Position numbers and translations under genes: made by a program. Positions 1,091 to 63,922 of a stretch of DNA of 64,000 bases are shown one piece after another; within the stretch, counting starts at the first letter, position 1, and every line of letters starts with the position of its first letter. A model generated the notes under the pieces. The model made no database searches. It saw only the letters and a list, made by a program, of their open reading frames with translations, and was not told where the DNA came from. Origin of the DNA: a virus; the IMG/VR virus record IMGVR_UViG_3300035695_000001, positions 50,139 to 114,138 of that record; one strand, 5' to 3'.

Positions 1091-1097
1091 CCGACCG

Positions 1098-2219: not shown

Positions 2220-2239
2220 GCTGTAGTCCTATCTGCGCG

Positions 2240-3115
2240 TCAGAAGACGTTGGGGAAAGGCGTTGGCGGCGCGAGCATCCTTGCAAACTGGTACGCGCGG
2301 TCGCTGCGCCTCGACACGTAGCAATCGACCTGCTGGAGGATCCGGTAGAGCGAGTCGGGCGTGGCCAGCCCGAGCCCCGACAGCCCGGGAAGGAGCGCAC
2401 TGATCGCTGGCGTGTTCAGGGCCAACTGGATCGTGCCCGACTTGAGCGGGTCAGGCTGCGTCACGAGGAGCGGCTGGTTGCTCCAGTAGTACGGCGTCAC
2501 GTTGTCGGGCCGCATGTACCAGCCGACCTCTCGACGAAGGCTCACCCAGAAGTCGAAGTCCGACGTGAATGGGGTCCCGTCTGCCGCGCCTCCGTTGCAG
2601 GTGATCGAGATCGGCCAGACGTTGTCGCCTGGGCTCAGTTCAGACGGGATGAGAAGCGGGCCGTTGATCCCCACCAGCCCGCCAGAGAAGACGTGGCCCC
2701 CCTGGGTCGTGAGGACCAGCGTGCTCGTCGGGTAGCCCCACCCGCTCTTCCGCAGGTTGCTGGCCCTGTCGGAGAAGGTGCCATCCGCCTGCTGGGGGCC
2801 CGGCCAGGTGGGCAGGCCGTCGAGAGCCACCAAGAGCCTGCGGACGACCCCGCCGGAGATGTAGGCGTTGGCGTAGGGGACGGGGATCGTGAAGGTGTTC
2901 GCCCCCGTCACCGTGACCTGGAAGAAGCCGTTGGCCTCCCCGGTGCCGACGATCTCCGAGATGTCGACCCAGTCGCCCGTGGTCCGCCCGTGAGCGATCG
3001 AGGTCTGGACCTGGACCAGCCCGCCAACGCTCGACGTGCCGACGACGCCCCCGCCGACAGCCGTACCTGGCTGCCGAAAGAAGGCGCGAGCCTGAGCATA
3101 TGTCGAGCAGATCAT
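2240..3115 (-). CDS. Tail protein with FCCH-like domain
   Basis: ATG 3115 overlaps the upstream TGA (ATGA), which excludes the longer open frame running upstream with Arg-rich translation. The 291 residues carry, at about 45-95, the phage-tail motif 'VGTGEANGFFQVTVTG..TFTIP' that databases label E1-FCCH-like. The same motif occurs in the gene at 5255-5998. The C-terminal half is beta-rich with many Trp and Pro residues (DFDFWVSLRREVGWYMRPDN). It lies between the baseplate genes and the fibre gene, so a baseplate-distal or fibre-adaptor role is likely. No catalytic motif is seen. Confidence 0.65.
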   Translation of the reverse strand: MICSTYAQARAFFRQPGTAVGGGVVGTSSVGGLVQVQTSIAHGRTTGDWVDISEIVGTGEANGFFQVTVTGANTFTIPVPYANAYISGGVVRRLLVALDGLPTWPGPQQADGTFSDRASNLRKSGWGYPTSTLVLTTQGGHVFSGGLVGINGPLLIPSELSPGDNVWPISITCNGGAADGTPFTSDFDFWVSLRREVGWYMRPDNVTPYYWSNQPLLVTQPDPLKSGTIQLALNTPAISALLPGLSGLGLATPDSLYRILQQVDCYVSRRSDRAYQFARMLAPPTPFPNVF

Positions 3116-3906
3116 GCGGCTGCGTCGGTCGGCTTCGCGTCGGGATCCGGGTTGATGACGGTGGACGGCGGCACGGTCTGCTGAGCGCCCCACACCTCGG
3201 CGATGCAGGCGGCGCATGGCCGGCACACCGGGACGGGCTTCGTGACGTTGTGGGCCAGCGAGACGGGCACGGTCGTCGACCCCTTGCCGGGCGGGTCGAC
3301 CTTCGTGGCCACGCACCGCGAGCAGAGCGCCCCCTCGACGACGGGGGACTTGGCCTCCCGATCGTCTGGCGAGAGCGACATCCACTCGGCCAGCGTCAGC
3401 GGCGGGGCCTCCGGAGCGGCGATGAGAGCGATGGGCGCGTCCACGACGCGGAGCACACGCACGTCTGGCACGTCGCGGTGGTCGGTCGAGTTGACGGCGA
3501 ACGCCCAGAGGCTCTCTCCGTTCGTCACCCCGGCAGCCTTGATCCCGGCGTCGAGTTGCTGGCGTGTGAGGCCGAACATCTGGCCGTACTGCTCCAACCG
3601 GAGCGCGATCACGGCGGGCGCGGTCATGCACCTCGACGCGCCTGGCCAGCGGTCCTCGATGATCCTGCTCCCGACCGGATCGTCCGGCGTGGCGATGAGC
3701 AGGATCGGGTCGGCGCCGGTGCGATCGATGTGCTCCGCGCGTCGGGCCATGGCGACGGCGAACGCCTCGCGGGCCGCACCGATGAGCCGCCCCTCGGGCC
3801 CCCTCGGCGTCTGCGGGACCGTCGATGGGTCCAGTACGAAAGCTCCGCCTGGGTTCGAGAAGGTGAGGAGCGTGGTGTGGGTCTTGGGGTCGTCCATGCC
3901 GGTCAT
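3112..3906 (-). CDS. Hypothetical protein with C-terminal Cys pairs
   Basis: The 264-residue product has no family I recognise. The N-terminal two thirds look globular (PDDPVGSRIIEDRWPG). Near residues 215-245 there are CSRC and CRPCAAC pairs, which could form a zinc ribbon. GAGG lies about five bases before ATG 3906 and supports that start over the internal ATG three codons later. It sits directly after an endonuclease gene and overlaps the next tail gene by ATGA. It may be a late accessory protein or a fibre-assembly factor. Confidence 0.6.
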   Translation of the reverse strand: MTGMDDPKTHTTLLTFSNPGGAFVLDPSTVPQTPRGPEGRLIGAAREAFAVAMARRAEHIDRTGADPILLIATPDDPVGSRIIEDRWPGASRCMTAPAVIALRLEQYGQMFGLTRQQLDAGIKAAGVTNGESLWAFAVNSTDHRDVPDVRVLRVVDAPIALIAAPEAPPLTLAEWMSLSPDDREAKSPVVEGALCSRCVATKVDPPGKGSTTVPVSLAHNVTKPVPVCRPCAACIAEVWGAQQTVPPSTVINPDPDAKPTDAAA

Positions 3907-3912
3907 GCTACC

Positions 3913-4587
3913 TCAGTGGACTCCGGGGAGCGTAGGCTGCTCGACGACCTTATTGGCCTTGGGCTTCTTCGGCTTGCGCTTTAGCGTCGACGGAGGCTCC
4001 GCGCCGTGGAGCACGGACCATTTCTCGACGTAGTCCGCCGCAGCGCGAAGGACCATAGAGTCGTCGCGCATGGCCCCGACGCCGAAGTTGCACAGGTGAC
4101 ACAGGAGCGCTCGCACCTTGCCAGTTACGTGGTCATGGTCGACAGACAGTCGTCCCTTGCTTCTTTTGTTTTGGCACGGCTTATGGCAAATCGCGCACAC
4201 GCCGTTCTGTGCGACGACCATCGCGTCATACTGCTCTGCGGTGAGGCCAAATTTACGACGGAGATGGCCGGCGCGAGCTGTCGCAGTATACGCTTCTTTC
4301 CTATCGTTCCTGTTCTTTGCCGACTTCTCGGCCTGCTTCTTCCTGAATTCGGCCAGTTCTTGTTCAGACATTCGCGCGATACGCGCTTCGCGACACTTCC
4401 TTTGTCTCTCTGGGCTCTGTGAACGACGCTTCGCGTCGGCGGTCCTCCCGTGGGACAGAACCTTGTCCTTGTTACGGCCGCGCCACTCTTTTGTGGAATC
4501 CTGGATGGCCTGGTACCTTGCCGGGTCCGCTTGTGCTGTTCGCCGTCGCTGTTTCCCTGACTTAGACAGTTCGTTGAATGGTTTCAT
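3913..4587 (-). CDS. Recombination endonuclease VII-like (HNH) nuclease
   Basis: A 224-residue protein with a very basic N-terminal half (Lys/Arg-rich, about 1-110) and an endonuclease VII-type His-Cys/HNH module: C131-x2-C134, VDHDHVTG at 149-156, and C163-x2-C166-N167. T4 endonuclease VII resolves branched DNA; related stand-alone HNH proteins act as homing nucleases. Its DNA is visibly less GC-rich than its neighbours, and it interrupts the baseplate-to-fibre gene order, so recent acquisition is likely. It could resolve DNA before packaging or simply be a selfish insertion. Confidence 0.85.
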   Translation of the reverse strand: MKPFNELSKSGKQRRRTAQADPARYQAIQDSTKEWRGRNKDKVLSHGRTADAKRRSQSPERQRKCREARIARMSEQELAEFRKKQAEKSAKNRNDRKEAYTATARAGHLRRKFGLTAEQYDAMVVAQNGVCAICHKPCQNKRSKGRLSVDHDHVTGKVRALLCHLCNFGVGAMRDDSMVLRAAADYVEKWSVLHGAEPPSTLKRKPKKPKANKVVEQPTLPGVH

Positions 4588-4612
4588 TGTCCGATGGTAC
4601 CACGGCGTACGG

Positions 4613-5251
4613 TCAAATTCCAGTCAGCCCGACAGTGCCAATCCCGGCTACGAAACCACTACTAGACACGGTAATGATGGCTACGTCCCATGCCGGCAAG
4701 ACGAGTTTGAGTCTGAGACATAGCCTCCTCTTGAGGTCATCCAGAGCCGATGAGACAAGTCCAGTAGCGTTAATTTTTACGCCCAAGAGGTTCGACGTTC
4801 CGCTCCATCCGTACCCCGCGGGCCCTGGGTTCAAGCCGGGGGCGTACACGATCGGCGATGCTGCCGCCGTGAGCCCAACGAAGGCCGAGCCCGCAATGGC
4901 CTGGCACGCATCCTCGATCGCCGCCAGCGCGTTGGACGAGAGCCCAGCGAAGCACGCTGCCACGGCCCCGCGCCGGTCGTTGTCGCTCGTCCCTGGCAGG
5001 ACCGAGAGCGAGCACGCCTCCTCGAAGACGGGGAGGCTCTCCATCATCTTTGGGGGGCACAGGAGCCCCTTGAGCCGCTCGTCGCATGCCCAGACGTTGG
5101 ACAGCATGATGGCCTCGGCGTGGCACATCGCGACATGAAGCGGGTCTGTCGGGTCGAGCAGCGAAGCATCGAGCAGCGCCTGCTTCTCCTGCTGGACGAC
5201 GCTGGGGCCGCCGCCCAAGCGCATCGCGAGGGGTGTCCCTAGACCAGCCAT
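4613..5251 (-). CDS. Baseplate-distal tail protein (YmfQ-like position)
   Basis: A 212-residue protein located two genes downstream of baseplate J, near the position where Mu-like phages carry the YmfQ/gp48 family. The segment with MMESLPVFEEACSL and DNDRRGAVAACFAGL resembles the helical 'RR..V.A.L' part of that family, but I cannot assign it firmly. The C-terminal third is hydrophobic and beta-rich (SSGFVAGIGTVGLTGI). The first part of its DNA near 4650-4760 is AT-richer than usual, next to the inserted nuclease gene. Probably a tail component. Confidence 0.5.
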   Translation of the reverse strand: MAGLGTPLAMRLGGGPSVVQQEKQALLDASLLDPTDPLHVAMCHAEAIMLSNVWACDERLKGLLCPPKMMESLPVFEEACSLSVLPGTSDNDRRGAVAACFAGLSSNALAAIEDACQAIAGSAFVGLTAAASPIVYAPGLNPGPAGYGWSGTSNLLGVKINATGLVSSALDDLKRRLCLRLKLVLPAWDVAIITVSSSGFVAGIGTVGLTGI

Positions 5252-5254
5252 CGC

Positions 5255-5998
5255 TCAGCCCCCCACGACGAAGACGTTGGTGCCCACCGGGAGGTCGACC
5301 GGCACAGGGCGGTAGTATTCGACGCCACCCCCACCACCGTAAGCGTTGGCGAAGGTCGAGCCCTGGAGGTCGATGTGCGTGCCGTCAATCACGGTCACCT
5401 TCCACACGTTGTTGGCCTCGACGGTCCCGGTCACGTCGACCACTACCACGTAGTAGCCGGTGACCAGGTTCGCCGTCGAGGACACGGTCAGCCGGATCAG
5501 TCCGGACCCGTTGTTGGCGGCGCCGGAGATCGACAGCCCGCTCGCAGCGGCCACCATGACCGTGATCGAGACCGAGATGACGTTCCCGGCCCGCGTCGTG
5601 GTCATCGTCACTGGGAACGGCATCCCGTCGACGTAAGCGAACGACCAGCGGAAGTTGACGACCTCCAGTTGGCTGTTCGGCACGCTATTGGCCCAGATCC
5701 CAGGCCCCAGGATCGACGTCGGCAGGGCCTCCACCGTGTAGGTCCCCACCCCTGTCCTGGTGGCCACCATCCAGTTCGACGGGCCCGTTCCCCACTCGGC
5801 CGAGCCGTCTGCGGGCGTCGAAACGCCGCTGGCGACCGTCGGGAATCTGAGCCACGCGCGCCTGGTCGTGAGCGACATCTGGGCGACCGAGTCGAACGCC
5901 CGATTGACCTGCGCGGCGGATAGGTCGGTCTGGACGTTAGCGACGATCACGGCATCGCGCATTGGGATGCCGTAGGTCCCGGGGCTCTGGGCTTCCAT
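5255..5998 (-). CDS. Tail/baseplate protein with FCCH-like domain
   Basis: A 247-residue protein immediately downstream of baseplate J. The C-terminal part has the motif 'VVDVTGTVEANNVWKVTVID' followed by LQGSTFANAY, a strong match to the FCCH-like repeat seen in many phage tail proteins. A related copy is encoded at 2240-3115. The N-terminal half is a Trp-rich beta domain. A role in the baseplate periphery or as a link between baseplate and fibre is inferred from position. No enzyme motif is visible. Confidence 0.65.
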   Translation of the reverse strand: MEAQSPGTYGIPMRDAVIVANVQTDLSAAQVNRAFDSVAQMSLTTRRAWLRFPTVASGVSTPADGSAEWGTGPSNWMVATRTGVGTYTVEALPTSILGPGIWANSVPNSQLEVVNFRWSFAYVDGMPFPVTMTTTRAGNVISVSITVMVAAASGLSISGAANNGSGLIRLTVSSTANLVTGYYVVVVDVTGTVEANNVWKVTVIDGTHIDLQGSTFANAYGGGGGVEYYRPVPVDLPVGTNVFVVGG

Positions 5999-6013
5999 TG
6001 GTCGACGCTGCTC

Positions 6014-7573
6014 CTAAAGTTGCCTGAAGGCGAGGGAGCCAGAGAGCCCAGTCGCAGGGACGGCTCCGGCCAGGGTGATGACGAGTGGCGGGTCCCCAGT
6101 CGTGTCTGGGATCTGCGGCGTCGACTGCGCCGTGCTGGTCCCGGCGAGGTTGACCTGCGAGAGCGAGAAGTCCTCAATCTCAGCGTATGAGTTTGCAAGG
6201 ATCCCCAGCATTTTAGTGGTGACTCCGCTAGGCACGCCGTTGGTGATGTCGGCCGCTGGCTGCCGGCTCGCCAGCGGGAGCAATTCGGGGAGCGCCGTGA
6301 TCTCACCGGGGCCGAGTTTCTGGACCTGCGCGGCGACGTTCCGCGCGTAGGAGACGAGGTTGATCGCGCCGGCCGAGATGTAGACCCGGCACCCCGCGTT
6401 GACGATCGTCGTGAGCCATGCGGGGTAGGCCCCCTGGACCGTGATGCTGAAGTTGGGCCACGACCCAAGCACGGTCGCGATGTTGAACTCGCGCATGGTC
6501 CCCATGACGTGAGGGGTCACCGACGTGTCGAGCGTGGTCGGGTCCCAGATCCCGATGCTGGTCCCGACCACGGGGGCAGAGACCTGGCTCCCGGCCAGTG
6601 AGTGCGTCTGGATCGTGACCCCGAAGGCGATCCCGGTGACGTAGACGTCCTCCGCCGGCCACGGAGCCTGGTCTCTCCACCCGCCTCCGTTCCCTGCGCC
6701 GAGCGGGAGCGGGAGCGTCAGAGCCGCCACCACGTCTGTCGGTTGGATGGTGCAGGAGTTGACCGTGATCCGCTCCTGCCCGGGGAAGGCGGCGGCGAGG
6801 GCCCCGCGCACGACGTTCAGGGTGGGGGTGTTGAGAGTGCGGACCGGGCCGGCTTGGGTGCAGGCCACGGCGAAGGAGCCGGCCCCTCCGTTCGCGGCGT
6901 AGCAGTAGGCCGCCTCGACGGCCGCCGTGGCGTTCTCCGCGACCTCGACGACCATGGGCCAGTTGCCGCCCACGGGGGCCGCCGCGAGCCTCTGGAGGAG
7001 GCTGGCGCGGAGTTGGTCGTTCCCGTCTGCCGCGTACCCATCGGTGATCCCGCTCCCATCGACGACCCCGGTACGGGCGAGCGCCCCGATGGCCGCGCTG
7101 TCCCAGGTGAAGATCGCGCCAGCCTGGGCGTCGCCTCCTGGCCCGCCGGAGATGCAGGTGACGGGGACCGATGCGCCGGTGGCGAATGTCCCGCCCCCAG
7201 TCGCCCCAGTCGTGTACCGCTGGGCGCCGATCGTCCCTGTGAAGTTCGGAGGGATCGTGACGGTGCCGGAGCAGGTGATCGTGATCCCGCCGCTGGCGTT
7301 GCTCGCCGGACGTGGGGCGACCCCGAAGACGGCGGCCAGGGCGATGAGATCGTCCCCCGTCGCGGTGAGCGGGTTGGACTGGGCCAGGCTGATCTGGTTG
7401 TTGGCGATGGCCTGCGCCACCCGCTGCGTGATGGCGACGCCGCGGTTGTAGCAGTCGCTCCCGACCCCAGTCTCGACCGTGAGCCCGCCCGAGTAGACGT
7501 AGTAGGCGTACCGGAGCGCATCGAGGTACGTGGCGAGCAACTGGCTCGGGGTCGGGTACGCGGTCTGCACCAT
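6014..7573 (-). CDS. Baseplate J-like protein
   Basis: A 519-residue protein of the gpJ/Mu gp47 family, which forms the baseplate wedge of contractile tails. The family pattern is visible: the helical start (QLLATYLDALRYAYYVYSGG), LTATGDDLIALAAVFGVAPR near residue 75, a beta domain rich in Gly and Thr, and the 'QLRASLLQRLAAAPVGGN' stretch near 185-202 before the central domain. It lies between the spike/small baseplate genes and the FCCH protein, the expected order. The long Gly/Val-rich C-terminal half appears intact. Confidence 0.85.
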   Translation of the reverse strand: MVQTAYPTPSQLLATYLDALRYAYYVYSGGLTVETGVGSDCYNRGVAITQRVAQAIANNQISLAQSNPLTATGDDLIALAAVFGVAPRPASNASGGITITCSGTVTIPPNFTGTIGAQRYTTGATGGGTFATGASVPVTCISGGPGGDAQAGAIFTWDSAAIGALARTGVVDGSGITDGYAADGNDQLRASLLQRLAAAPVGGNWPMVVEVAENATAAVEAAYCYAANGGAGSFAVACTQAGPVRTLNTPTLNVVRGALAAAFPGQERITVNSCTIQPTDVVAALTLPLPLGAGNGGGWRDQAPWPAEDVYVTGIAFGVTIQTHSLAGSQVSAPVVGTSIGIWDPTTLDTSVTPHVMGTMREFNIATVLGSWPNFSITVQGAYPAWLTTIVNAGCRVYISAGAINLVSYARNVAAQVQKLGPGEITALPELLPLASRQPAADITNGVPSGVTTKMLGILANSYAEIEDFSLSQVNLAGTSTAQSTPQIPDTTGDPPLVITLAGAVPATGLSGSLAFRQL

Positions 7574-30311: not shown

Positions 30312-30740
30312 TCAGTCGCCCCTGCGACCAGCACGTTTCCCAGCCACTTTGGTGGCTTTCTTCTTTGCCTTCGGCGCTACGCGGCGCTCTTCGGCACGAT
30401 CCGCTACCGATCGCATCGAAAGCGGAATGAGGCGGCACTGGAGCCAGATGGCGAGCTTTTCGCGGACCGCAACCACGTTCCCGAACCCGTCAGCCGGGCC
30501 ATAGATGGGGCAACTCTTGTCCTTTGTCGCCAGTTCCCTGAGTTGGCGGATCGATCCAGGCCCACCGTTCTCGGCGCAGAACTTGGCGATCTCCTTCCAG
30601 CCGCTCAAAGGAGCGGGAGGTGGAGGACGTGGTTCCACCACATGGATCACCGAAGCAAGCCCACCAGATCCAGAGAACCCGGTTGGCCCTGGTACGGCAA
30701 CGAGGCCGTAGGTGACGAAGCAGCCGGCGGCCAGCATCAC
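30312..30740 (-). CDS. HTH DNA-binding protein with basic tail
   Basis: The start is GTG 30740 (GTGA overlap) or ATG 30737 (TGATG). Residues about 46-105 match the small winged-HTH type found in excisionases and some small terminases: 'LSGWKEIAKFCAEN', then a recognition-helix region and 'GNVVAVREKLAIWLQCRLIP'. The C-terminal 25 residues are Lys/Arg-rich (APKAKKKATKVAGKRAGRR) and should bind DNA. The N-terminal 40 residues are hydrophobic and Pro-rich. It may regulate the long structural transcript or assist packaging. Confidence 0.55.
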   Translation of the reverse strand: MMLAAGCFVTYGLVAVPGPTGFSGSGGLASVIHVVEPRPPPPAPLSGWKEIAKFCAENGGPGSIRQLRELATKDKSCPIYGPADGFGNVVAVREKLAIWLQCRLIPLSMRSVADRAEERRVAPKAKKKATKVAGKRAGRRGD

Positions 30741-31459
30741 CGGCCCATCACCAGCGAGACCACAGCGCGGGCCCGTGGCTGGCGCGTGGCACGATGTTGC
30801 GACGGCTCATCGACTGGGAGCCCGGCGGCGTCTCGGTAGAGCCGCACAGCCTCGGCGAGGAGGGCCGACGCCTCGTCCTTGACCCGACGGAGGGCCGACT
30901 GGCCTGGGTTCGTCGAGTCGAGGCAGAGCGAGACCACGAACCGCTCGGCAGCCGTCAGGACCAGCCTGGGGCGCTCCGACTCCTTGGTCTCCTTGCTGGC
31001 GCTCATCCGGACCGGCTTGGCGTCGAAGCAGACATCCGATTCGATCCCGGCGAGGAGCACTGACACCCCGTAAAGGCTGGGGGCCAACTTGCGGAAGACC
31101 CTGGAAGAGACCCCGCGAGCCTCCCCGTCTTCCAGGCGCCGAGCCCAGGGGATCGGACCGTGGGAAGCGTAGAGGACCAAGCCCCAGGCTGGGGAGCCAG
31201 GTGCGCGAGCGGGGAGGGCGACGAGCGCGTTCCGGATGGCCCGGCGGTGCTCCCACCCCTTCAGGCGCCGGTCCATCTTGGAGCCGTCGCCGAGCAGGCG
31301 CCGCTCCGGGTCCGTGCAGCCACCCCCGAAGCCACCCTGAGCGGCATCGACCAGCGAGGACCATGACGATGTCACCTGCGAACCATGGCCATGGCCCTCG
31401 AAGAAGTCGACGAGGTAGCCGTCAAGTACACGATCCCCAGAGTGACGCCCGACACCCAT
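30737..31459 (-). CDS. First gene of the structural block; possible late regulator
   Basis: A 240-residue protein at the head of the 30-kb leftward block. The A of its ATG lies exactly 15 bases after the T of a TGCTAG element and no Shine-Dalgarno fits between, so a leaderless start is likely. The middle (ERRLLGDGSKMDRR, then 'EHRRAIRNALVALPARAP') and the end ('LTAAERFVVSLCL') loosely resemble antitermination/ArpU-like late regulators, which often sit just before packaging genes. The similarity is weak. Confidence 0.6.
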   Translation of the reverse strand: MGVGRHSGDRVLDGYLVDFFEGHGHGSQVTSSWSSLVDAAQGGFGGGCTDPERRLLGDGSKMDRRLKGWEHRRAIRNALVALPARAPGSPAWGLVLYASHGPIPWARRLEDGEARGVSSRVFRKLAPSLYGVSVLLAGIESDVCFDAKPVRMSASKETKESERPRLVLTAAERFVVSLCLDSTNPGQSALRRVKDEASALLAEAVRLYRDAAGLPVDEPSQHRATRQPRARAVVSLVMGR

Positions 31460-31465
31460 GGCAGA

Positions 31466-31488
31466 AGGCTAGCACGGGCTGTCTAGCA
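31466..31488 (-). promoter_or_regulatory. Tandem GTCTAGCA elements before the structural block
   Basis: On the - strand TGCTAGACAGC (31488-31478) is followed 13 bases later by a degenerate TGCTAGCC (31475-31468), which ends 7 bases before ATG 31457-31459. The distance from T of the second copy to the ATG is 15 bases, the same as at four other genes. Confidence 0.7.
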
Positions 31489-31535: not shown

Positions 31536-31568
31536 ACTGTCTAGCAGCGGCCGGTGGTGCTAGACAGT
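31536..31568. promoter_or_regulatory. Perfect 11-bp inverted repeat in a divergent promoter region
   Basis: ACTGTCTAGCA (31536-31546) and TGCTAGACAGT (31558-31568) face outwards with an 11-base spacer, between the leftward structural block and the rightward gene at 31596. The rightward gene has its own Shine-Dalgarno (GCAGGAGG) before ATG 31596, so its transcript has a leader. Confidence 0.85.
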
Positions 31569-38658: not shown

Positions 38659-38973
38659 TCAGCCGCCGATCTCCGTAACCGTGACGTCTTCGATCCACCC
38701 AGGCTGTGGGTTGAACGGAGCGGTGATGCAGACACGCATCGTGGCGAAGTCGATGTGGGCCTCGACGCCCTGGTCAGGCCAGGCGTTGGCCACCTCGACG
38801 GCGAGTCGGCTGGGCGTCAGCGTGTCGGCCTCGGGCTCACGCTCACCAGGCGCAGGGTCTGGCGCGTAGCGCTTGTATTTCGACAGGAAGACGTGAGCCT
38901 CGCCACGCATCCGCTCGAAGTGGCCTTGCGCGGCAAGGGTGTGCATCAGCGCTGCCTGTGCCACGGGCCTCAC
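38659..38973 (-). CDS. Small protein of the terminase operon
   Basis: GTG 38973 overlaps the upstream stop (GTGA). The 104-residue product has a helical N-terminus (VAQAALMHTLAAQGHFERMR) and a mixed second half (ADTLTPSRLAVEVANAWP; 'IDFATMRVCITAPFNPQPGW'). It lies between the gene at 38970 and the large terminase, three bases before the terminase start. A role in packaging or as a structural adaptor is a guess from location. Confidence 0.6.
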   Translation of the reverse strand: MRPVAQAALMHTLAAQGHFERMRGEAHVFLSKYKRYAPDPAPGEREPEADTLTPSRLAVEVANAWPDQGVEAHIDFATMRVCITAPFNPQPGWIEDVTVTEIGG

Positions 38974-39611
38974 GTCGCCTCCTCCGCCTTCGGCGCCTCG
39001 ATGACGATGGCCGGCGCCCACCCGAAGTGGCAGGTCCGCCAGTCGGGCCCGTAGGCTTCCGCGGCGGCCATGGCGTAGCCGTCCAGGTAGTCGCGGCGCT
39101 GGTCCTCGGGAACGTACTCGGGCGCGACCAGGGCCGTGGCGCGGGCAGCGAGCCCACCCGCCGAACCGAAGGGGTTGTGCTCACAGGCGTCGAGCGCGCA
39201 GTTGGTGGCGCCCCAGTTGTACGGCTCGGGGGGAGGGTCCTGCCAGGTGACCTTGGTCTTGCCGCCATGGCCGTGGATGCAGACCACCTCGGCCATGCTG
39301 TCGTAGATGGCGACCGACGAGTGCTTGGTCAGCCAGGACAGTGCGACCCTGCCGTTGGAGAAGCGGATCCCCTCGGCGACCCGGCCGGTACCTGAGACCC
39401 CGCTCTCGTCGTCGGAGCGGTCGAGCCAGAACCGGATCGTGGTGGGGGCGCTCTGGGTGGCGACTTCGAGGAAGCGCTCCGCGGCCTGCTTCTCGCCCGC
39501 GTCCTGGATCTTGAACTCGTAGACGATCTCTCGCGGCCGGATCTGATCGCGCGGGTTGGCTGGCTCGACTGGGGGCGGCGGAATGGTGCTGGGAGGGTGG
39601 GGGGCGTCCAT
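38970..39611 (-). CDS. Phage protein of unknown function, leaderless start
   Basis: A 213-residue protein. After a Pro-rich leader, the middle (about residues 70-120) has the pattern 'GRVAEGIRFSNGRVALSWL' followed by VVCIHGHGGKT, which I recognise as a recurring phage hypothetical in which a His-Gly-His-Gly loop closes a beta domain. A C-terminal Cys/His-containing helical part follows (NCALDACEHNPFG, DGYAMAAAEAYG). The ATG is 16 bases from the T of a TGCTAGACT element with no Shine-Dalgarno, so its mRNA is probably leaderless. It heads the terminase operon. Confidence 0.65.
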   Translation of the reverse strand: MDAPHPPSTIPPPPVEPANPRDQIRPREIVYEFKIQDAGEKQAAERFLEVATQSAPTTIRFWLDRSDDESGVSGTGRVAEGIRFSNGRVALSWLTKHSSVAIYDSMAEVVCIHGHGGKTKVTWQDPPPEPYNWGATNCALDACEHNPFGSAGGLAARATALVAPEYVPEDQRRDYLDGYAMAAAEAYGPDWRTCHFGWAPAIVIEAPKAEEAT

Positions 39612-39616
39612 GCGCC

Positions 39617-39642
39617 AGAGTCTAGCACCTCGGTGTCTAGCA
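39617..39642 (-). promoter_or_regulatory. Two tandem GTCTAGCA elements
   Basis: On the - strand TGCTAGACA (39642-39634), which contains the stop codon of the capsid paralogue, is followed 15 bases later by TGCTAGACTCT (39627-39617), 16 bases before ATG 39611. Both point toward the terminase operon. Confidence 0.8.
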
Positions 39643-40494
39643 GTCGTGCTTGGGCCAGCCGATGTCGCGGATGACGGCGTGCGCGTTCGGCTGGTCGACC
39701 ACCAGTTGCGTGACCAGCGTGGCAGCGACGCCAGGTACCTCCCCCTTCTCGCCGCGTGAGAACTGGAACCGCACCGGCGACGAGTCGCCCACCCGGAGGT
39801 AGTTCAGGCAGACGTGGTCTGGTTGCAGGAGCACGATGATGCCCCGCGGGAACCGCTCGACGTTGGAGAGGCGCATGCCTACCTGCTGGAGCACCTTGCC
39901 GGCAGCGTCCATCGCGTCGGGGTTGCCCACGGCCAGCGTGGGAGCCGTACCGCTGGCGGTGACGCAGTAGTTGACTGCCCGGGTCGCCAGCGCCGTCGTG
40001 AGGGGCCTCGGCACGCCGCCGTTGGCGAAAACGTTGGCGCTCCAGTGCGGGTAGGTCGATCGGCTGATGTTGGCGTAGACGGCGGTGGCGGCCAGCGCAC
40101 CACCGAGCAGGCCGTAGATGGCCGGGTTGTGGTTCCGGTCGATCCCGTTCCCGACGTGGAGGTCGTCCTCGACGAGACGGGCCAGGGCTCCGAACACCTT
40201 GGTGACCCGCTCACGGAACCGCTCGGCGAGCGCTTCCCGCCCGTAGGTCTCCGCCGCGAGCACGTCCTCCGCCGTGACCTGGAAGGCGGCCCGGTACATG
40301 CCCCACGGGAGGCACGCTTGCCCGGTCGGCCCGGTCACTCCATCGGGGCGTGCCTCCCAGTTGACGTTCTTGCCGTACCCTGGCCGCGCCTCCAAGGCGG
40401 CCATGAGGCTGTTCGGGCCGGCGTGCTTGGCTCCGAACTCGAAGTGGTAGGTGCTGGTGAGGGCTGAGGTGATCCTGGTGGCTGCGTCGTCCAT
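39637..40494 (-). CDS. Second capsid-like protein (major capsid paralogue)
   Basis: A 285-residue homologue of the major capsid protein at 24170-25234, about 15 kb away. Shared blocks in the same order are GKNV-x-W-[DE]-A, a helix ending DDLHVGNGIDRNHNP (capsid DDFYTGTGTDGNGNQ), GLLGGALAATAVYANISRST (capsid GVLGGALELSGSYAGISRST), NGG-x-PRPLT, and a C-terminal QLVVDQPNAHAVIRDI (capsid QLRVEHPNANGYIADI). It is about 70 residues shorter, missing loops. The ATG is 15 bases from a TGCTAGACT element. It could be a minor capsid or vertex protein, a size variant, or a decoy. Confidence 0.85.
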   Translation of the reverse strand: MDDAATRITSALTSTYHFEFGAKHAGPNSLMAALEARPGYGKNVNWEARPDGVTGPTGQACLPWGMYRAAFQVTAEDVLAAETYGREALAERFRERVTKVFGALARLVEDDLHVGNGIDRNHNPAIYGLLGGALAATAVYANISRSTYPHWSANVFANGGVPRPLTTALATRAVNYCVTASGTAPTLAVGNPDAMDAAGKVLQQVGMRLSNVERFPRGIIVLLQPDHVCLNYLRVGDSSPVRFQFSRGEKGEVPGVAATLVTQLVVDQPNAHAVIRDIGWPKHDC

Positions 40495-40498
40495 CCCG

Positions 40499-40531
40499 TG
40501 AGTCTAGCAGTACCGACGCCTGCTAGACAGT
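40499..40531. promoter_or_regulatory. Inverted GTCTAGCA elements with 11-base spacer
   Basis: The left arm GTCTAGCA ends at 40509, so its T lies 15 bases before the ATG of the leftward capsid paralogue. The right arm TGCTAGACAGT is at 40521-40531 with the same 11-base spacer as at 31536. No rightward gene is visible beyond the right arm, so that arm may be a pure operator. Confidence 0.8.
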
Positions 40532-44207: not shown

Positions 44208-44491
44208 CGTCGGCCTCCGAGGTCGATGCCGACCGGCTGGATGTCCTCAGCGATCTCTTCGAGGAACTTGAGCGCCGCGTGGAAGGCCGAATCGCCCTCC
44301 TGTCGCCACGATGCGACGCTATCCACGATCTCCCTGGCCAGTGCTTCGTCCGCAACTAGCGCTCGCCGGATAGCGTCCGCCGTGTCCTCGCCATCCCTGG
44401 CCTTCACCAGTCTCCTGACCTCGGCGTGCGCCTGCTCGCAAAGGCACCCCGGTCCGTGCCCTGCCCACTTACCGCTGGTCTTGTCGTCCAT
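44204..44491 (-). CDS. Small hypothetical protein
   Basis: ATG 44491 overlaps the previous stop by one base (TGATG). The 95 residues include a Cys/His-containing start (GKWAGHGPGCLCEQAHAEVR) and an acidic helical remainder (DTADAIRRALVADEALAREI; 'FHAALKFLEEIAEDIQPVG'). It may bind metal at the N-terminus. It is the second gene of the operon starting at 44709. Confidence 0.65.
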   Translation of the reverse strand: MDDKTSGKWAGHGPGCLCEQAHAEVRRLVKARDGEDTADAIRRALVADEALAREIVDSVASWRQEGDSAFHAALKFLEEIAEDIQPVGIDLGGRR

Positions 44492-44709
44492 CACATCCTC
44501 GTCTCCTCTTGCCGTGCCACCGAGGCGTACGGCTCCCCGCTCTTGCCGTTGGTCCAGGTCGACCCGCATCGGCCGCACTTGAACCTGGGACGCCCGTCGG
44601 CCGCAGGCGCCGCCATCCGGATGATGTCGGTGTGCCTGCACGACCCGCAGCACGTCTTGGTCCGGCGCGGTTCCTTGGCGGCTCGGCGTCGCCCCCTGCT
44701 CTTGCCCAT
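44491..44709 (-). CDS. Zinc-ribbon protein, leaderless start
   Basis: ATG 44709 lies exactly 15 bases after the T of TGCTAGACAGT (- strand), with no room for a Shine-Dalgarno. A GTG two codons earlier is inside the element and unlikely. The 72-residue product has a basic start (GKSRGRRRAAKEPRRTKTC) and a zinc ribbon made of CCGSC and FKCGRCGSTW, typical of small transcription- or replication-associated proteins. As the first gene of an eleven-gene operon it could regulate its own transcription. Confidence 0.7.
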   Translation of the reverse strand: MGKSRGRRRAAKEPRRTKTCCGSCRHTDIIRMAAPAADGRPRFKCGRCGSTWTNGKSGEPYASVARQEETRM

Positions 44710-44712
44710 CCG

Positions 44713-44752
44713 CACTGTCTAGCACAAGGTCGTCCGGTTGTGCTAGACAGTG
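44713..44752. promoter_or_regulatory. 13-bp perfect inverted repeat, divergent promoters
   Basis: CACTGTCTAGCAC (44713-44725) and GTGCTAGACAGTG (44740-44752) surround 14 bases. The left arm is 15 bases from the ATG of the leftward operon; the right arm is 80 bases from the rightward ATG 44821, which has GGAG before it. This is the longest exact pairing among the copies. Confidence 0.85.
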
Positions 44753-45196: not shown

Positions 45197-45535
45197 ATGG
45201 CGACCAACATCCCGGCAGGCGCAGAGGTGACGCTCACGATCCGGCTGACCGTGGGCCCATGGACCCCATGCGACGAGGGCTACGAGCGGCGGTGGTCCGG
45301 TCCGGTCGCCAAGGACGGTTCCCAGCCCGCGGCTGCCCGCGTGACGAAGAAGGCGATGCCGTGGCCGTTCAAGCCGCGGTGGGAGTGGAGCGCTGGCGAT
45401 CCCTACAGCGATGAGTGGATCGAGGAAGGCGAGACGAAGGGTGCCGGTCCTGATGACGCGATGGCTGTGGCCGACGCCGCCCTCAAGCAGATCGTGGCCG
45501 ACATCGAAGGCGAGCCGCCCACGGCGCCTGTCTAG
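45197..45535 (+). CDS. Hypothetical protein ending inside a GTCTAGCA element
   Basis: Starts one base after the previous stop. The 112-residue product is beta-rich at first (GAEVTLTIRLTVGPWTPCDE) with Trp-rich strands ('AMPWPFKPRWEWSAGD') and a helical end (DAMAVADAALKQIVADIEG). Its last codons, GTC TAG, lie within CCTGTCTAGCA, so the element sets the C-terminal valine and stop. Function unknown; co-transcribed with the gene at 44821. Confidence 0.7.
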   Translation: MATNIPAGAEVTLTIRLTVGPWTPCDEGYERRWSGPVAKDGSQPAAARVTKKAMPWPFKPRWEWSAGDPYSDEWIEEGETKGAGPDDAMAVADAALKQIVADIEGEPPTAPV

Positions 45536-45583
45536 CACCCGCCAGCACTGTCTAGCACTGGCCCCCCAGGTCTGCTAGACAGT
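45527..45583. promoter_or_regulatory. Cluster of three GTCTAGCA elements
   Basis: CCTGTCTAGCA (45527-45537), ACTGTCTAGCA (45547-45557) and TGCTAGACAGT (45573-45583). The last two form an inverted repeat with a 15-base spacer. The third ends six bases before ATG 45590 (17 bases from its T). It is the densest cluster and lies upstream of a possible DNA-binding gene. Confidence 0.85.
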
Positions 45584-45589
45584 GACCTC

Positions 45590-46000
45590 ATGCCCACCCC
45601 AAAGAAGCCAGCCAAGCAGCCACGATCCTCCGAGCCGACCGAGACGGTGGAGCCCTCGTCCAGGGCCCCCGTCGAGCGGAAGAGCCCCATGCTGGCCACC
45701 ACGGTCTCCAAGGAGGTCTACAACGCCGTCCAGGAGGCCATGGAGGAGCACGGGCTCAAGCGGTCCGTCGTAGTCGACAACGGGCTCCGGATCGGCCTCG
45801 GGCTCGGGGCAGGGCCGGAGGGGTGGAAGATCCCCATGCCCCCAGGCTTCAAGGCGCTGGCCGCCAAGAACGGAGCCCACAAGACCATGGCAGCCGTCGA
45901 GGCTGTAGCCGAGGTTCTCCCCGAGCGGATCGTGGAGCGGGACGGCGAGGGAGCCCCCGAGGAGCAGAGCCAGGTCCCGCGCAGGGGAAAGAAGCGATGA
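45590..46000 (+). CDS. Ribbon-helix-helix-like DNA-binding protein, candidate regulator
   Basis: A 136-residue protein. After a Lys/Pro-rich arm, residues about 33-68 (SPMLATTVSKEVYNAVQEAM, then HGLKRSVVVDNGLRIGL) follow the ribbon-helix-helix pattern of CopG/Arc-type regulators: a short strand, a helix and a second helix. The C-terminal half is helical and ends basic (QVPRRGKKR). The ATG lies 17 bases after the T of a GTCTAGCA element with no Shine-Dalgarno. Three element copies directly upstream make autoregulation likely, and it is my first candidate for the protein that binds the element. Confidence 0.6.
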   Translation: MPTPKKPAKQPRSSEPTETVEPSSRAPVERKSPMLATTVSKEVYNAVQEAMEEHGLKRSVVVDNGLRIGLGLGAGPEGWKIPMPPGFKALAAKNGAHKTMAAVEAVAEVLPERIVERDGEGAPEEQSQVPRRGKKR

Positions 46001-46745: not shown

Positions 46746-47077
46746 GAGAGCGCGTTCACGAACGGGTCGCTATCCGTGGACCAAACGGTCACGAGGTTCG
46801 AGATCGATCGTTCCGCCTTTTCGTGGACGACCAGCGCCCGCTCGCAGACCTCTGCCTCGTGGCGCTGTCTCGGGTCAGGAGAGGCATGTGTTTCGGCTGG
46901 GAAGCGTGCGCAGCGCTCGACGTTCGCACGCCGACCATGGAGCGGGTCATCGCCTTCCTCCTCGGCGCTCGACTGATCCATCGGGTCCGCAGGTTCAAGG
47001 CCGACGGTGAATGTGGACCAGACGGCCGTCATGTCGTCACGCGAGAGCTGCTCTACATCGCCGCAGGGGACCGATGA
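46742..47077 (+). CDS. Winged-helix-like small protein
   Basis: GTG 46742 overlaps the previous TGA; frames upstream are shadows. In the 111-residue product the middle ([20 protein letters not shown], then '[20 protein letters not shown]') looks like a winged-helix domain, with a strand-turn-strand after it ([18 protein letters not shown]). It ends in ATGA overlap with the LexA-like gene, so the two DNA-binding proteins are made together and may act in the same switch. Confidence 0.55.
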
Positions 47078-47472
47078 CTGGGCTCACCGACAGGCAGGCT
47101 GAGATCCTGGCCTTCATCCGGGCCCGCTACCGGGAGAAGGGGTACGCGCCGACCATCCGTGAGATCGGCGCCCACTTCGGGATCCGCTCGACCAACGGCG
47201 TCAACTGTCACGTCAACAGGCTGGTCGCGAAGGGGGCGCTGCGGAAAGAGGACATGAAGTCCCGCTGCCTGGTCCCCGTCGAGCGGGAGGAAGCACCCGT
47301 ACGGGCGCCGGCTCAATGCGAGGACGGGCAGGGAGACATCGTCGCCGTCGACGTGGTGGAGTTCGTGCGCGGTACGGGTCTGGTCGGGAACGTACGAGAG
47401 ACCCTGCGGTTCGACGCGAAGTTGCTGGTGGACACCGCCAGGCTGCCGAGTCTCTGGGCCAGGCGGCCGTAG
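47074..47472 (+). CDS. LexA N-terminal-domain protein without the peptidase domain
   Basis: A 132-residue protein. Residues 3-70 match the LexA DNA-binding domain: '[20 protein letters not shown]', '[19 protein letters not shown]', '[14 protein letters not shown]'. E. coli LexA has about 200 residues with a Ser/Lys self-cleaving domain; here the remaining 60 residues have no Ser-Lys peptidase signature. A repressor of this kind would not respond to RecA by cleavage. It is the last gene of the operon that begins with the RHH-like regulator and is a second candidate for binding the dispersed element. Confidence 0.8.
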
Positions 47473-49975: not shown

Positions 49976-50012
49976 ACTGTCTAGCAGTTCTGAGCCCACT
50001 GTGCTAGACAGT
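49976..50012. promoter_or_regulatory. Perfect 11-bp inverted repeat between divergent genes
   Basis: ACTGTCTAGCA (49976-49986) and TGCTAGACAGT (50002-50012) with a 15-base spacer, between the leftward gene starting at 49914 and the rightward gene at 50031. The rightward ATG has GGAGG before it and lies 29 bases from the right arm, so this transcript has a leader. Confidence 0.85.
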
Positions 50013-52062: not shown

Positions 52063-52299
52063 ATGAGGGGCCTATCCTTGGACGAGGCGCAGATCCTCGT
52101 CGACATCTCCGACCCGGTCGCGGCCCACTACCGCAGCGGCGGTCTCACCTGGGCCGAGGTCTACCGCCGACGTCCCATCCTCCACAAACTCACGTTGGAG
52201 GGCAGGGCGGCACCCAACGATCGCGGAGGCTGGCAGATCACTGCGCTCGGCAGGCTCGCCTTGCGCGTGTCGCTATCGCTCCCGCGACCGACTGTCTAG
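52063..52299 (+). CDS. Small winged-helix-like protein flanked by two elements
   Basis: A 78-residue protein bounded by GTCTAGCA elements on both sides: one ends a base before its ATG and one contains its stop (GTC TAG). There is no Shine-Dalgarno between the upstream element and the ATG. The sequence (EAQILVDISDPVAAHYRSGG; 'TWAEVYRRRPILHKLTLEGR'; GGWQITALGRLAL) reads as helices followed by a wing, so DNA binding is plausible. It is the third candidate regulator for the element. Confidence 0.6.
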   Translation: MRGLSLDEAQILVDISDPVAAHYRSGGLTWAEVYRRRPILHKLTLEGRAAPNDRGGWQITALGRLALRVSLSLPRPTV

Positions 52300-52415: not shown

Positions 52416-52449
52416 GATGTCTAGCAGGACCCGCGGGCACTGTCTAGCA
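52416..52449. promoter_or_regulatory. Two GTCTAGCA elements after a leftward operon
   Basis: GATGTCTAGCA (52416-52426) and ACTGTCTAGCA (52439-52449) are direct repeats 23 bases apart. The second contains the stop codon (TGC TAG on the - strand) of the gene at 52444-53034. No leftward gene follows, so a promoter role is unlikely here. Confidence 0.8.
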
Positions 52450-53856: not shown

Positions 53857-53893
53857 ACTGTCTAGCACAGTGGGCTCGGAACTGCTAGACAGT
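53857..53893. promoter_or_regulatory. Perfect 11-bp inverted repeat between divergent genes
   Basis: ACTGTCTAGCA (53857-53867) and TGCTAGACAGT (53883-53893) with a 15-base spacer. The right arm is followed by GTTG and ATG 53898, giving exactly 15 bases from T to ATG. The leftward gene is 90 bases away and has a Shine-Dalgarno. Confidence 0.85.
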
Positions 53894-55601: not shown

Positions 55602-55635
55602 TGCTAGACAGTTCCTCCGACCAGTGCTAGACAGT
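55602..55635 (+). promoter_or_regulatory. Two tandem promoter-oriented elements
   Basis: TGCTAGACAGT at 55602-55612 and again at 55625-55635, 23 bases apart, both pointing to the gene at 55678. The second is 53 bases from the ATG, and CGGAGGACC before the ATG shows a leadered mRNA. The 23-base spacing recurs at 52416/52439. Confidence 0.85.
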
Positions 55636-59364: not shown

Positions 59365-59660
59365 GCCCGACCTCCATTCCGAACACGGACGACGGCGTCC
59401 GCGGCTTTGGCGTGGGCAGCCTGGGCGTCCCGCTCGGCCTCCAGTGCCTTCTGGTACTTCATCCTGCCGCCGTAGCGCTCGAACCAGTAGAGCGCCGTCG
59501 TACAGGGAGGGGGAGGCGTCCAGCGCCAGACGTCCCGGCGGGCCTGGTCCAGACGCTCCCCCGCAAAACGCTCGTCGCTCAGGACCCGGTCGAGCGCTTC
59601 GCCGTAAGCGATGGCCGCCATGAGCCCAACGGGCAGCGGGGTCGTGCCCACCAGCATCAT
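59361..59660 (-). CDS. Small hypothetical protein
   Basis: ATG 59660 overlaps the previous stop (ATGA); a second ATG follows immediately. The 99-residue product starts hydrophobic (MMLVGTTPLPVGLMAAIAYG), continues with a charged helical part ('RVLSDERFAGERLDQARRDV'), and carries PPPP and a Cys-containing loop before a final coiled-coil helix (YQKALEAERDAQAAHAKAAD). Unknown function. Confidence 0.6.
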   Translation of the reverse strand: MMLVGTTPLPVGLMAAIAYGEALDRVLSDERFAGERLDQARRDVWRWTPPPPCTTALYWFERYGGRMKYQKALEAERDAQAAHAKAADAVVRVRNGGRA

Positions 59661-60025
59661 CGTGCTCCTACCTTCCTGGCCTGCTTGCGCTCGCGCCTGG
59701 TGAGCCTTCGCTTGCCCTTCCACTCCGGGAGGGGCTTGATCCGGGGACCTGTCCCGAGGGCATCACGGACAGCCTTGGGAGCGGGAGCGTCGAGGGTGTT
59801 GGGGGGCAGCCTGCGAGACTTGGGCTTGCGCTGGCTGAACGGGGAGGGGCCAAGGCTCACCGTCGCCACGATGCCAGACAGCGCCGCTAGCAGCCCCATC
59901 GTCTTCCTTGCCTCGGCATCACGGTCGAGGCGTCGCTCCACGGAGCGGACGGCGTCCTCGACCTCGCCGACGGAGATGCCGTTGATGGCGGCGATGCGCT
60001 GGAGGGCCTCGGAGCGAGCGTCCAT
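59657..60025 (-). CDS. Small membrane-associated basic protein, leaderless start
   Basis: ATG 60025 is 15 bases after the T of TGCTAGACT on the - strand, without a Shine-Dalgarno. The 122-residue product has a charged N-terminal helix (AINGISVGEVEDAVRSVERR), one hydrophobic segment (MGLLAALSGIVATVSLG) near residues 43-60, and a strongly basic C-terminus (WKGKRRLTRRERKQARKVGA). It heads the chain of ten or more coupled genes that runs down to 56791. Possible anchor or RNA-binding protein. Confidence 0.6.
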   Translation of the reverse strand: MDARSEALQRIAAINGISVGEVEDAVRSVERRLDRDAEARKTMGLLAALSGIVATVSLGPSPFSQRKPKSRRLPPNTLDAPAPKAVRDALGTGPRIKPLPEWKGKRRLTRRERKQARKVGAR

Positions 60026-60029
60026 GGGC

Positions 60030-60062
60030 AGAGTCTAGCACAGTGGGCGGGTGCTAGACAGC
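60030..60062. promoter_or_regulatory. Inverted GTCTAGCA elements with 11-base spacer
   Basis: AGAGTCTAGCA (60030-60040) and TGCTAGACAGC (60052-60062). The left arm drives the leftward gene at 60025 (15 bases). The right arm points into the end of the leftward ParB-like gene, so it is probably an operator arm. Confidence 0.85.
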
Positions 60063-60076
60063 GGCGAGCAGGAGCG

Positions 60077-61156
60077 TCAGCCCTTGGCTGTGACCTGGTC
60101 AGCCTCGTCGAGCGCTGCCTTCATCTGATCCACGTACCCGCGGAGGACCACCTTGGCCTCGGGGGAGAGCATGCGCTTGTCGGCAGCCTTGATTGGGGCC
60201 ACCACTTCGAGTGCTACGCGGGTACTCGTGATGGCGATCTCCTCGGGGTCTCTGTTCCTGTCAGAGCCGCGGGTTGCGAGCCAGTCCAGGTTCGACTGGA
60301 GGAAGGCCGCCCCGTCCACGAACGTCTGGCCCATGGGCAGCGAGAAGGCGTCCTGCGACGCCAGCACGTCGTCCCCGTTGCGGAACACAAAAACGAGGTA
60401 GTAGTCGGACTCGTCCCGCTTGGCGAAGGCTTGCTTGAGGTGCGTCTGCCGCTCCTGCGCCTTCTCCATCGCGAGCGAGAGGTTCATGGCCTGGGCGCTC
60501 GCCTTCATGGCGTCGCCGGAGGCTCCGAACATCGTGTAGAAGTCCCCCTCGCTGAAGCCGGTGGCCTTGAGCTTCACCTTGGGGCGCTTGAGCAGTTCGC
60601 CGAGAAGCGCGAAGTTCCAGCCGCCCTGGGCCATCGCGTTGTTGAGAGCGATCCCAACCTCGACGTGCTTGTCCTCGTCCAGGTCCACGACCGAGACCTG
60701 GATCTGGTAGACGTGGCCGGTCTTGCTCTCCTTGTCGAGCACCTTGAGCCGCTGGTGCCCGCTCACCATCCCGAGGGGCTTGCCGTCGGGACCGAACCGC
60801 TTGTTGAAGACGACGCTGGGTTCCACCAACCCGTTGTCGGCGACCGAGCCGCGGAGGGCAGCGAGATTGTCAACCTCGATGTAACGAGGATTTTGTTCCC
60901 ACTCGGTGATGGCCCGGCGGTCCATCCAGACCACCTCGTAGCCTCCGTCGAGTTGGTGGCGTGGGACCTCCGCCGAGCCGATGGGGAGAGCGGCCAGCCT
61001 CTCCTTGTCGGTCTTCGGCTTGGACTCCTTGGGGGCCGCGCCGTCCGCCGGAGCCTTCTTCGCTCGCGGCTTCTTGGCCGGCTTCTCGGTCTGCGTCTGG
61101 TTCTGATCCTGCGAGGCTGCCGCCGCCGCGCCGGACTCGGGTGCAACGTCGTCCAT
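60077..61156 (-). CDS. ParB-like (IbrB-type) nucleotide-binding protein
   Basis: A 359-residue protein. After a 60-residue Lys/Ala-rich arm, residues about 85-140 show the ParB N-terminal pattern: NPRYIEVDNLAALRGSVADN, GLVEPSVVFNKRFG, and the box GMVSGHQRLKVLDKE (GHQR in place of GERR). The C-terminal half is helical with a beta part. In many phages and in E. coli IbrAB a ParB-like protein is paired with a PAPS-reductase-like one. Here the partner at 61868 is separated only by an HNH gene. The activity of the pair is not established. Confidence 0.75.
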   Translation of the reverse strand: MDDVAPESGAAAAASQDQNQTQTEKPAKKPRAKKAPADGAAPKESKPKTDKERLAALPIGSAEVPRHQLDGGYEVVWMDRRAITEWEQNPRYIEVDNLAALRGSVADNGLVEPSVVFNKRFGPDGKPLGMVSGHQRLKVLDKESKTGHVYQIQVSVVDLDEDKHVEVGIALNNAMAQGGWNFALLGELLKRPKVKLKATGFSEGDFYTMFGASGDAMKASAQAMNLSLAMEKAQERQTHLKQAFAKRDESDYYLVFVFRNGDDVLASQDAFSLPMGQTFVDGAAFLQSNLDWLATRGSDRNRDPEEIAITSTRVALEVVAPIKAADKRMLSPEAKVVLRGYVDQMKAALDEADQVTAKG

Positions 61157-62960: not shown

Positions 62961-62971
62961 GGTGTCTAGCA
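62961..62971. promoter_or_regulatory. GTCTAGCA element containing a stop codon
   Basis: GGTGTCTAGCA; on the - strand TGC TAG ends the GIY-YIG endonuclease gene (stop at 62966-62968). Rightmost copy in the window. Confidence 0.75.
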
Positions 62972-63922
62972 GGAGGGGCTACCGGCGGGAGCGGCGGATG
63001 GCTCCACGACGGGAGGGGCGTCGTGGACCTTGGCCCAGATCCTCCCGGCCATGATGGCGCCGACCAGTGAGCCGCTGACGCCGAATCGCGCCGCGACCGC
63101 CTGCTTCTCCTCCCCAGCGCGAACCAAGGCTCGGATCTCTCGCACCTTGTCGGGGTTCAGTTTTGCGCGCGCGTCTGGGCCGATGGTGCCAGGCACCTCC
63201 AGCCAAATCTTGCCGCGCAGGATGCCCGTAATGGTCGAGTTGTGAACACCGAACGCATCCGCTACAGCGCGCCGCTTCTCACCGGCCGCCACACGCGCCC
63301 GGATGTCGCGAACCTGGTCGGCCGTCAACTTGCCGATGCCCATACGCGCACGAGCACCCTTCAAGCGCTTGCCGCACTCCACAAGTTTCGCCCGGCCCGC
63401 TGGCGTCAGCGTAGCGGCGCTGCGCGCCTTGCTCATTGCAGCACGCGCCTCCGGGGTCGACTGTCGCGCCGTCGCTGAAGCACTCATCTTGGCCCGGGTC
63501 TCTGGTGAGTGCTTGCGCCCACGCTGCGACACCTTCGACCGCTCGGCGATCTTCGCTCGCGTCTCCGGCGACTGGACGTGCCCAGGGGTCCCGTCTCCGC
63601 CGTCTGTGGCGTTGGTGAGGCGGGCGCCGAGCGCGCGGTAGTGGGCGATCCACTTCTTCTCGGCGTCCTTCCAGAGGTCCATGTCCGTGCCCGTCTCCAA
63701 TACGATCGGGACTGGCATCAGACCTGCGGCAAGGAGCGAGCGGAGCCACCTGCTCTTCCACGAGTTGTAGTCTTGGCTCTTCTTGGATCGCGCGGCGCCG
63801 CAATGGGTACGCAGACGGTTCCACGCGGTCTTCACCGTCCAGCCGACGTAGCGAACGTCGCCGGCATCGGCGAGCGGCACTGGGTCCAACAGTGCGTAGA
63901 TCGTCCAGGTCTTCGCTTCCAC
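62966..63922 (-). CDS. GIY-YIG homing endonuclease with NUMOD and HTH repeats
   Basis: A 318-residue protein (GTG start directly after the preceding TAG). GIY-YIG nuclease core: IYALLDP at 8-14 and RYVGWTVKTAWNRLRTH at 24-40. Then NUMOD3-type repeats (SPETRAKIAERSK, SPETRAKMSASAT, TPEARAAMSKARS) and two similar HTH units (LTADQVRDIRARVAAGEKRR..GVHNSTITGILRGKIW and LNPDKVREIRALVRAGEEKQ..GVSGSLVGAIMAGRIW). This is the build of a site-specific homing endonuclease. It ends in TGC TAG inside a GTCTAGCA element. Confidence 0.9.
   Translation of the reverse strand: MEAKTWTIYALLDPVPLADAGDVRYVGWTVKTAWNRLRTHCGAARSKKSQDYNSWKSRWLRSLLAAGLMPVPIVLETGTDMDLWKDAEKKWIAHYRALGARLTNATDGGDGTPGHVQSPETRAKIAERSKVSQRGRKHSPETRAKMSASATARQSTPEARAAMSKARSAATLTPAGRAKLVECGKRLKGARARMGIGKLTADQVRDIRARVAAGEKRRAVADAFGVHNSTITGILRGKIWLEVPGTIGPDARAKLNPDKVREIRALVRAGEEKQAVAARFGVSGSLVGAIMAGRIWAKVHDAPPVVEPSAAPAGSPSC

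Follow-up and report, generated by a model that had tools for sequence, protein, structure and literature searches.

The large, unclassified bacterial virus described here, contractile-tailed as judged from its genes, contains a strictly conserved 9-bp word, TGTCTAGCA (reverse TGCTAGACA), that is distinguished by a genome-wide excess, restriction to gene edges, pairing in outward-facing or direct arrangement only and a -10 position. Its best explanation, to which we give about an even chance, is that of a predicted site for a phage-encoded regulator on core promoters. An earlier sequence-only reading had already taken the repeated word for a regulator site, and its genome-wide placement over core promoters supports this well.

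The window, i.e. the whole stretch of DNA that was analysed, comprises 64,000 nt and corresponds to positions 50139-114138 of a 162,811-bp IMG/VR virus record. Portal, sheath, tape-measure, baseplate, capsid and terminase genes are all present in this record and mark a contractile-tailed phage. Genes were called with our own codon-usage ORF caller, and gene starts are predictions from sequence.

Number and arrangement of the 9-mer

The whole record holds 45 exact copies of TGTCTAGCA and none of the reversed control, and within the window 25 copies are observed versus 0.15 expected. These sites are spread across 133 kb. Thirty-six of the 45 copies are intergenic, though the non-coding share of the record is only 11%; seven overlap a stop codon, with TAG being supplied in either orientation, and two are located near the 3' end of a coding sequence. 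Neighbouring copies at most 40 bp apart form 11 outward-facing inverted pairs and 5 direct pairs, but no inward-facing pair. The start-to-start distance is 19-25 in the outward-facing pairs (with one exception of 33) and 20 or 23 in the direct ones. Two extra bases (TGCTAGACAGT) accompany 20 of 26 gene-facing copies versus 8 of 19 others (P 0.03, hand count). Every divergent intergenic region that was examined in the element-bearing part has one copy or more; the list omits regions whose gene calls are weak as well as the border with the right-hand end. The direct pair at 52418..52449 forms, together with the copies at 52053 and 52293, a group of four same-facing sites with no obvious promoter role. 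Within the window, the stop codon of a gene for a homing-endonuclease-like protein with GIY-YIG, NUMOD3 and HTH_7 motifs (62966-63922) falls inside an element.

Two simple readings of the word were discarded. A hairpin or terminator is out given the direct pairs, the single copies and the pairs at divergent promoters, and a -35 element is out as gene-facing copies stand 6-29 nt before many starts with no conserved -10 downstream.

About 25 kb at the two ends of the record are without any copy (P about 5e-4). These element-free ends argue for a distinct regulatory class, and their genes are likely early. The regions 1-6243 and 148900-162811 of the record (L031, L035, L036) show regular gaps of about 60 bp between genes, and many of these gaps contain a GC-rich hairpin (CCCCGGG...CGGGG) followed by a Shine-Dalgarno sequence; this module is also repeated and intergenic, and it lacks the 9-mer.

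Position of the word in the core promoter

The extended -10 sequence TGNTANNNT is found at only 23 sites on both strands of the record (325 kb), and at six of these an ORF begins with its ATG 6-7 nt downstream (0.5 expected, P about 6e-6). The ORFs behind these leaderless sites (record positions 28067, 30073, 81604, 89757, 90639 and 110170) have 66-332 codons. All six have a 9-mer within 60 nt upstream, starting, in record order, at a distance of 50, 20, 14, 15, 20 and 20 nt. The gene-facing 9-mer (TGCTAGACA) occupies the same -10 position: the exact gene-facing copies at window positions 44716 and 53883 are each followed by an ATG after 6 nt, and in a cluster discussed below copy 3 precedes the ATG of ORF 45590 by 8 nt. 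Because of these distances of 6 or 8 nt the gene-facing word, an extended -10-like sequence (TGCTAGAC[A/T]), is assigned to the extended -10 position. It shares with extended -10 leaderless promoters the TGnTAnnnT pattern 6-7 nt before ATG and differs from them in that most gene-facing copies have A, not T, at -7. With this A, TGCTAGACA is a weak -10 for sigma-70, whereas TGCTAGACT is the clear leaderless form.

A second copy usually follows 14-25 bp further upstream, over the -35/spacer region and in either orientation. We treat the exact upstream copy as having a function of its own, since it persists even at promoters with a deviating -10 and when it does not face a gene. The 9-mer may therefore well be a core-promoter/operator element in most of the operons, those of the element-free ends excepted. 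It is rather improbable, though conceivable, that one 9-bp word serves as extended -10 when read one way and as upstream control box of the opposite promoter when read the other way, so that an outward-facing pair would form a compact promoter for both directions, to be recognised by a factor specific to the phage (a regulator or the sigma-region-4 protein). The coordinates of the features in the window are compiled in Table 1.

Table 1. Element sites and putative regulatory proteins, in window coordinates
Feature	Position	Strand	Remarks
Extended -10 TGCTAGCCT	31466..31474	-	Record 81604; 6 nt before ATG of gene 30737-31459; exact 9-mer starts 14 nt upstream
Outward-facing inverted pair (start-to-start 20)	31538..31566	.	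Between divergent genes; single copy also at 31480-31488
Extended -10 TGCTAGACT	39619..39627	-	Record 89757; 7 nt before ATG of gene 38970-39611; exact 9-mer starts 15 nt upstream
Extended -10 TGCTAGACT	40501..40509	-	Record 90639; 6 nt before ATG of gene 39637-40494; inverted exact 9-mer starts 20 nt upstream
Outward-facing inverted pair (25)	44716..44749	.	Between divergent genes; left copy 6 nt before ATG of gene 44491-44709 (-)
CCTGTCTAGCA	45527-45537	+	Cluster copy 1; 9-mer TGTCTAGCA at 45529..45537
ACTGTCTAGCA	45547-45557	+	Cluster copy 2; TGTCTAGCA at 45549..45557; left arm of outward-facing inverted pair (start-to-start 24)
ACTGTCTAGCA	45573-45583	-	Cluster copy 3; 9-mer at 45573..45581; reads TGCTAGACA toward gene 45590
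136-aa RHH-like protein	45590..46000	+	RHH-like register at residues 31-72, pattern reading only
132-aa protein with LexA DNA-binding domain (N-terminal wHTH)	47074..47472	+	PF01726 E 4e-21; no peptidase domain
Outward-facing inverted pair (24)	49978..50010	.	Between divergent genes 49914 (-) and 50031 (+)
78-aa ORF	52063..52299	+	Winged-helix-like by eye; no family match
Direct pair (23)	52418..52449	+	Convergent intergenic region
Outward-facing inverted pair (24)	53859..53891	.	Between divergent genes; right copy 6 nt before ATG 53898 (+)
Direct pair (23)	55602..55633	-	Upstream of gene 55678 (+)
Extended -10 TGCTAGACT	60032..60040	-	Record 110170; 6 nt before ATG of gene 59657-60025; inverted exact 9-mer starts 20 nt upstream

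Proposed mechanism and comparison with known systems

In the mechanism that we propose, a phage-encoded DNA-binding regulator would bind the 9-mer (TGTCTAGCA/TGCTAGACA) at the core promoters of most operons except those at the genome ends, and its binding would control the access of RNA polymerase, mainly by blocking it as a repressor or roadblock. Protein binding and a mainly polymerase-blocking action are what we infer for the word; repression or roadblock is favoured because the upstream copy varies too much in position and orientation for a rigid activator, and because about ten copies are located at gene ends where they have no promoter role.

An activator or modified-polymerase model is kept open because of the element-free, early-looking ends and a phage protein with sigma region 4. 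This 360-aa protein (record 143103-144185; L035:8965-10047) has a clear C-terminal sigma-70 region 4 (PF04545 E 4e-6, 26.6 bits versus a cut-off of 24.1) that aligns to SigA/RpoD. Its N-terminal part has no recognised fold, and for region 2, which recognises the -10, neither Pfam nor NCBIfam gave a match at E up to 10. With such a protein the word could be an activator box, or a -10 for host polymerase modified by phage factors, and the operons would have phage-specific middle promoters, the ends comprising early genes and the element-bearing operons being expressed later. This alternative is possible, with a probability clearly short of even. The operon of the sigma-like protein itself has a direct pair of elements in its promoter region, direct pairs spaced 23 bring one TAGACA to -35 and another to -10 with a spacer of 17 bp between them, and the likely early genes of the ends are devoid of elements. 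An activator box, however, would not be expected to vary in orientation and in distance (14 to 25 bp upstream) or to occur at convergent gene ends, and no link leads from the sigma-like protein to the word. In the middle promoters of phage T4 a MotA box at about -30 replaces the -35 and is combined with an extended -10 (TGn). The present system resembles them in the short box plus extended -10 of a phage-specific promoter class, but here the box repeats the -10-like word itself, which may face either way, at variable spacing.

A second comparison concerns mycobacteriophage L5. Its operators and stoperators, served by the cluster A repressor, repeat a short word many times, in promoters as well as in the short gaps between genes (PMC9283540, PMC6550527). 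The genome-wide distribution of one short asymmetric word in 45 copies (36 intergenic, 7 on stop codons) is reminiscent of this, although the word has 9 bp here versus 13 in L5, and L5 sites have mostly one orientation relative to transcription whereas here 11 outward-facing pairs and both orientations before one gene are found. A stoperator-like immunity in which an Xre protein (record 139094) or the LexA-domain protein (47074) blocks initiation and elongation would explain why, as in L5 (PMC9283540), short sites are numerous in the promoter regions and narrow gaps between genes. It would also be in line with the Xre gene having one of the only two promoters of the type TTGAC-N16-19-TANNNT in the record, with no 9-mer over it. 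The sites in both orientations relative to transcription are unlike L5, no integrase was found in the record, which makes a lysogeny repressor less natural, and no homologous repressor was found. We consider such an immunity system doubtful. The phage system is filed under neither L5 stoperators nor T4 middle promoters.

A structural or segregation role (centromere-like, in replication or in packaging) instead of one in transcription is very unlikely. The window encodes a ParB-like/ParB-nuclease-like protein at 60077-61156 (PHROG 620, E 2e-14), and RHH ParB proteins bind repeat arrays (PMC9499535), but the sites, instead of being gathered in one locus, extend over 133 kb and are associated with promoters, and Pfam surveys of the record revealed no ParA family.

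Candidate regulators

The sequence-only reading had singled out the 136-aa protein encoded at 45590-46000 as the best regulator, a ribbon-helix-helix (RHH) protein flanked by the densest element cluster. Three copies within 57 bases directly before this ORF are indeed present at the coordinates given in Table 1. The TAG at 45533-45535 within copy 1 terminates the upstream gene 45197-45535, and the copies are spaced 20 and 24 bp, i.e. wider than contiguous RHH subsites. This is the densest cluster of the record, but it is not unusual if pairs are taken as the unit, since 78% of random intergenic placements then yield a triple within 57 bp. A triple is thus expected by chance and was dropped as evidence for autoregulation. 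Translation of ORF 45590 probably starts leaderless, or at Met34 (45689) as alternative.

The RHH reading of the protein fits as far as the register is concerned: residues 31-72 align by eye and ungapped to the register of an RHH protein from an Oscillatoria plasmid. Profiles and fold predictions do not support it. Pfam, PHROGs and NCBIfam gave no match, which is weak evidence because the RHH-like protein of the cyanobacterial locus L026 likewise gets none from Pfam. With a small RHH HMM the protein scores no better than its own shuffles. Structure prediction by single-sequence AlphaFold2 yielded low-confidence models (pLDDT 52 and 59) with a helix at 41-53 and no strand, and Foldseek found no significant match for them. 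The strand residues are M-A-T, as opposed to Q-N-R in the cyanobacterial RHH proteins, and BLASTP against the Laspinema protein described below did not align the domains. A search of 396 genomes from the phylum of a Gordonia locus gave scattered weak matches to the RHH-like protein (best E 1e-4); weak matches on Rhizobium plasmids were dropped as the annotated coding sequences are on the strand opposite to the match.

The LexA DNA-binding domain proposed for the protein at 47074 was confirmed. No peptidase family, and hence no C-terminal self-cleaving S24 peptidase, was detected in the profile search, and TIGR00498 matches the protein only over 1-73 of 203 positions, below its cut-off. The small protein at 52063 is bounded by elements at both ends, as described before, and the right-hand element supplies its TAG stop.

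Better-recognised DNA-binding candidates than the RHH-like protein exist, including two outside the window, namely the Xre/HTH_31 protein at record 139094 (L035:4956) and the sigma-70 region-4 protein at 143103. The pattern TTGAC-N16-19-TANNNT has only two matches in the record, at 137617 (L035:3479) and 139094, where about 2.4 are expected by chance according to our estimate; the latter precedes the Xre gene with no 9-mer over it. The match at 137617 precedes a PTH2-like gene that adjoins tRNA genes. A winged-helix-like protein at record 139543 is a further candidate. As binder of the element the RHH-like protein is a tentative candidate, the Xre protein a less probable one and the LexA-domain protein a still weaker one, the remaining probability going to other proteins. 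Among viral contigs no relatives of the terminase, portal, capsid, RHH-like or sigma-like proteins were found, and hence no related phage in which site and protein co-vary. The Xre protein gave two matches only, short and with a partial HTH.

Arrays of the word in cyanobacterial plasmid-type loci

Inverted pairs of the word occur in 13 stretches of a bacterial and archaeal genome collection, and just one of them has an array. This is a plasmid-type contig from Laspinema, in which 640 bp contain 10 exact copies that precede an RHH-like gene or lie within it. The homologue of its protein on an Oscillatoria plasmid is annotated as ribbon-helix-helix, CopG family, and copies of TTGTCTAGCA and CTAGACA are found upstream of its gene in the same place as the Laspinema copies. 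The word, the same or nearly so, is thus arrayed around ribbon-helix-helix genes in L026:330-980 and L081:3350-3490. In these plasmid-type loci a recombinase gene is located upstream of the RHH gene and points away from it. Viral contigs with one inverted pair or with direct pairs look like chance or repeat-protein matches and were set aside.

Direct and inverted copies of a short word are a feature that the phage shares with RHH arrays, both those of omega/ParB of pSM19035 and those of the cyanobacterial CopG family (L026/L081), and with the latter it shares even the 9-mer or a close variant. These RHH arrays, however, are contiguous and confined to a single locus, with a spacing of 7 bp in pSM19035 and mostly 10-12 bp in the cyanobacterial loci, whereas the phage has pairs at 19-25 bp scattered genome-wide. 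This bears on the possibility that the element is bound by the 136-aa protein as master regulator, under autoregulation through the cluster upstream of its gene, which would be compatible with the repressor model and which we regard as somewhat unlikely. Besides the register and the two cyanobacterial loci it is favoured by omega, which is reported to bind direct and inverted repeats (cited in PMC9499535). The lack of profile or fold support, the deviating strand residues, the sites being single or 19-25 bp apart as opposed to contiguous arrays at 7-12 bp, and the triple expected by chance speak against it. An RHH protein can accompany the word, yet this does not identify the phage protein.

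Meaning of the element map

The placement of the 9-mer provides a genome-wide and testable map of regulatory units in a large phage with almost no annotated relatives. It shows which operons would be co-regulated, where transcripts are expected to begin (about 7 nt beyond the word, leaderless) and which proteins belong on the shortlist of regulators, and it connects a single word with ribbon-helix-helix genes of unrelated plasmid-type loci.
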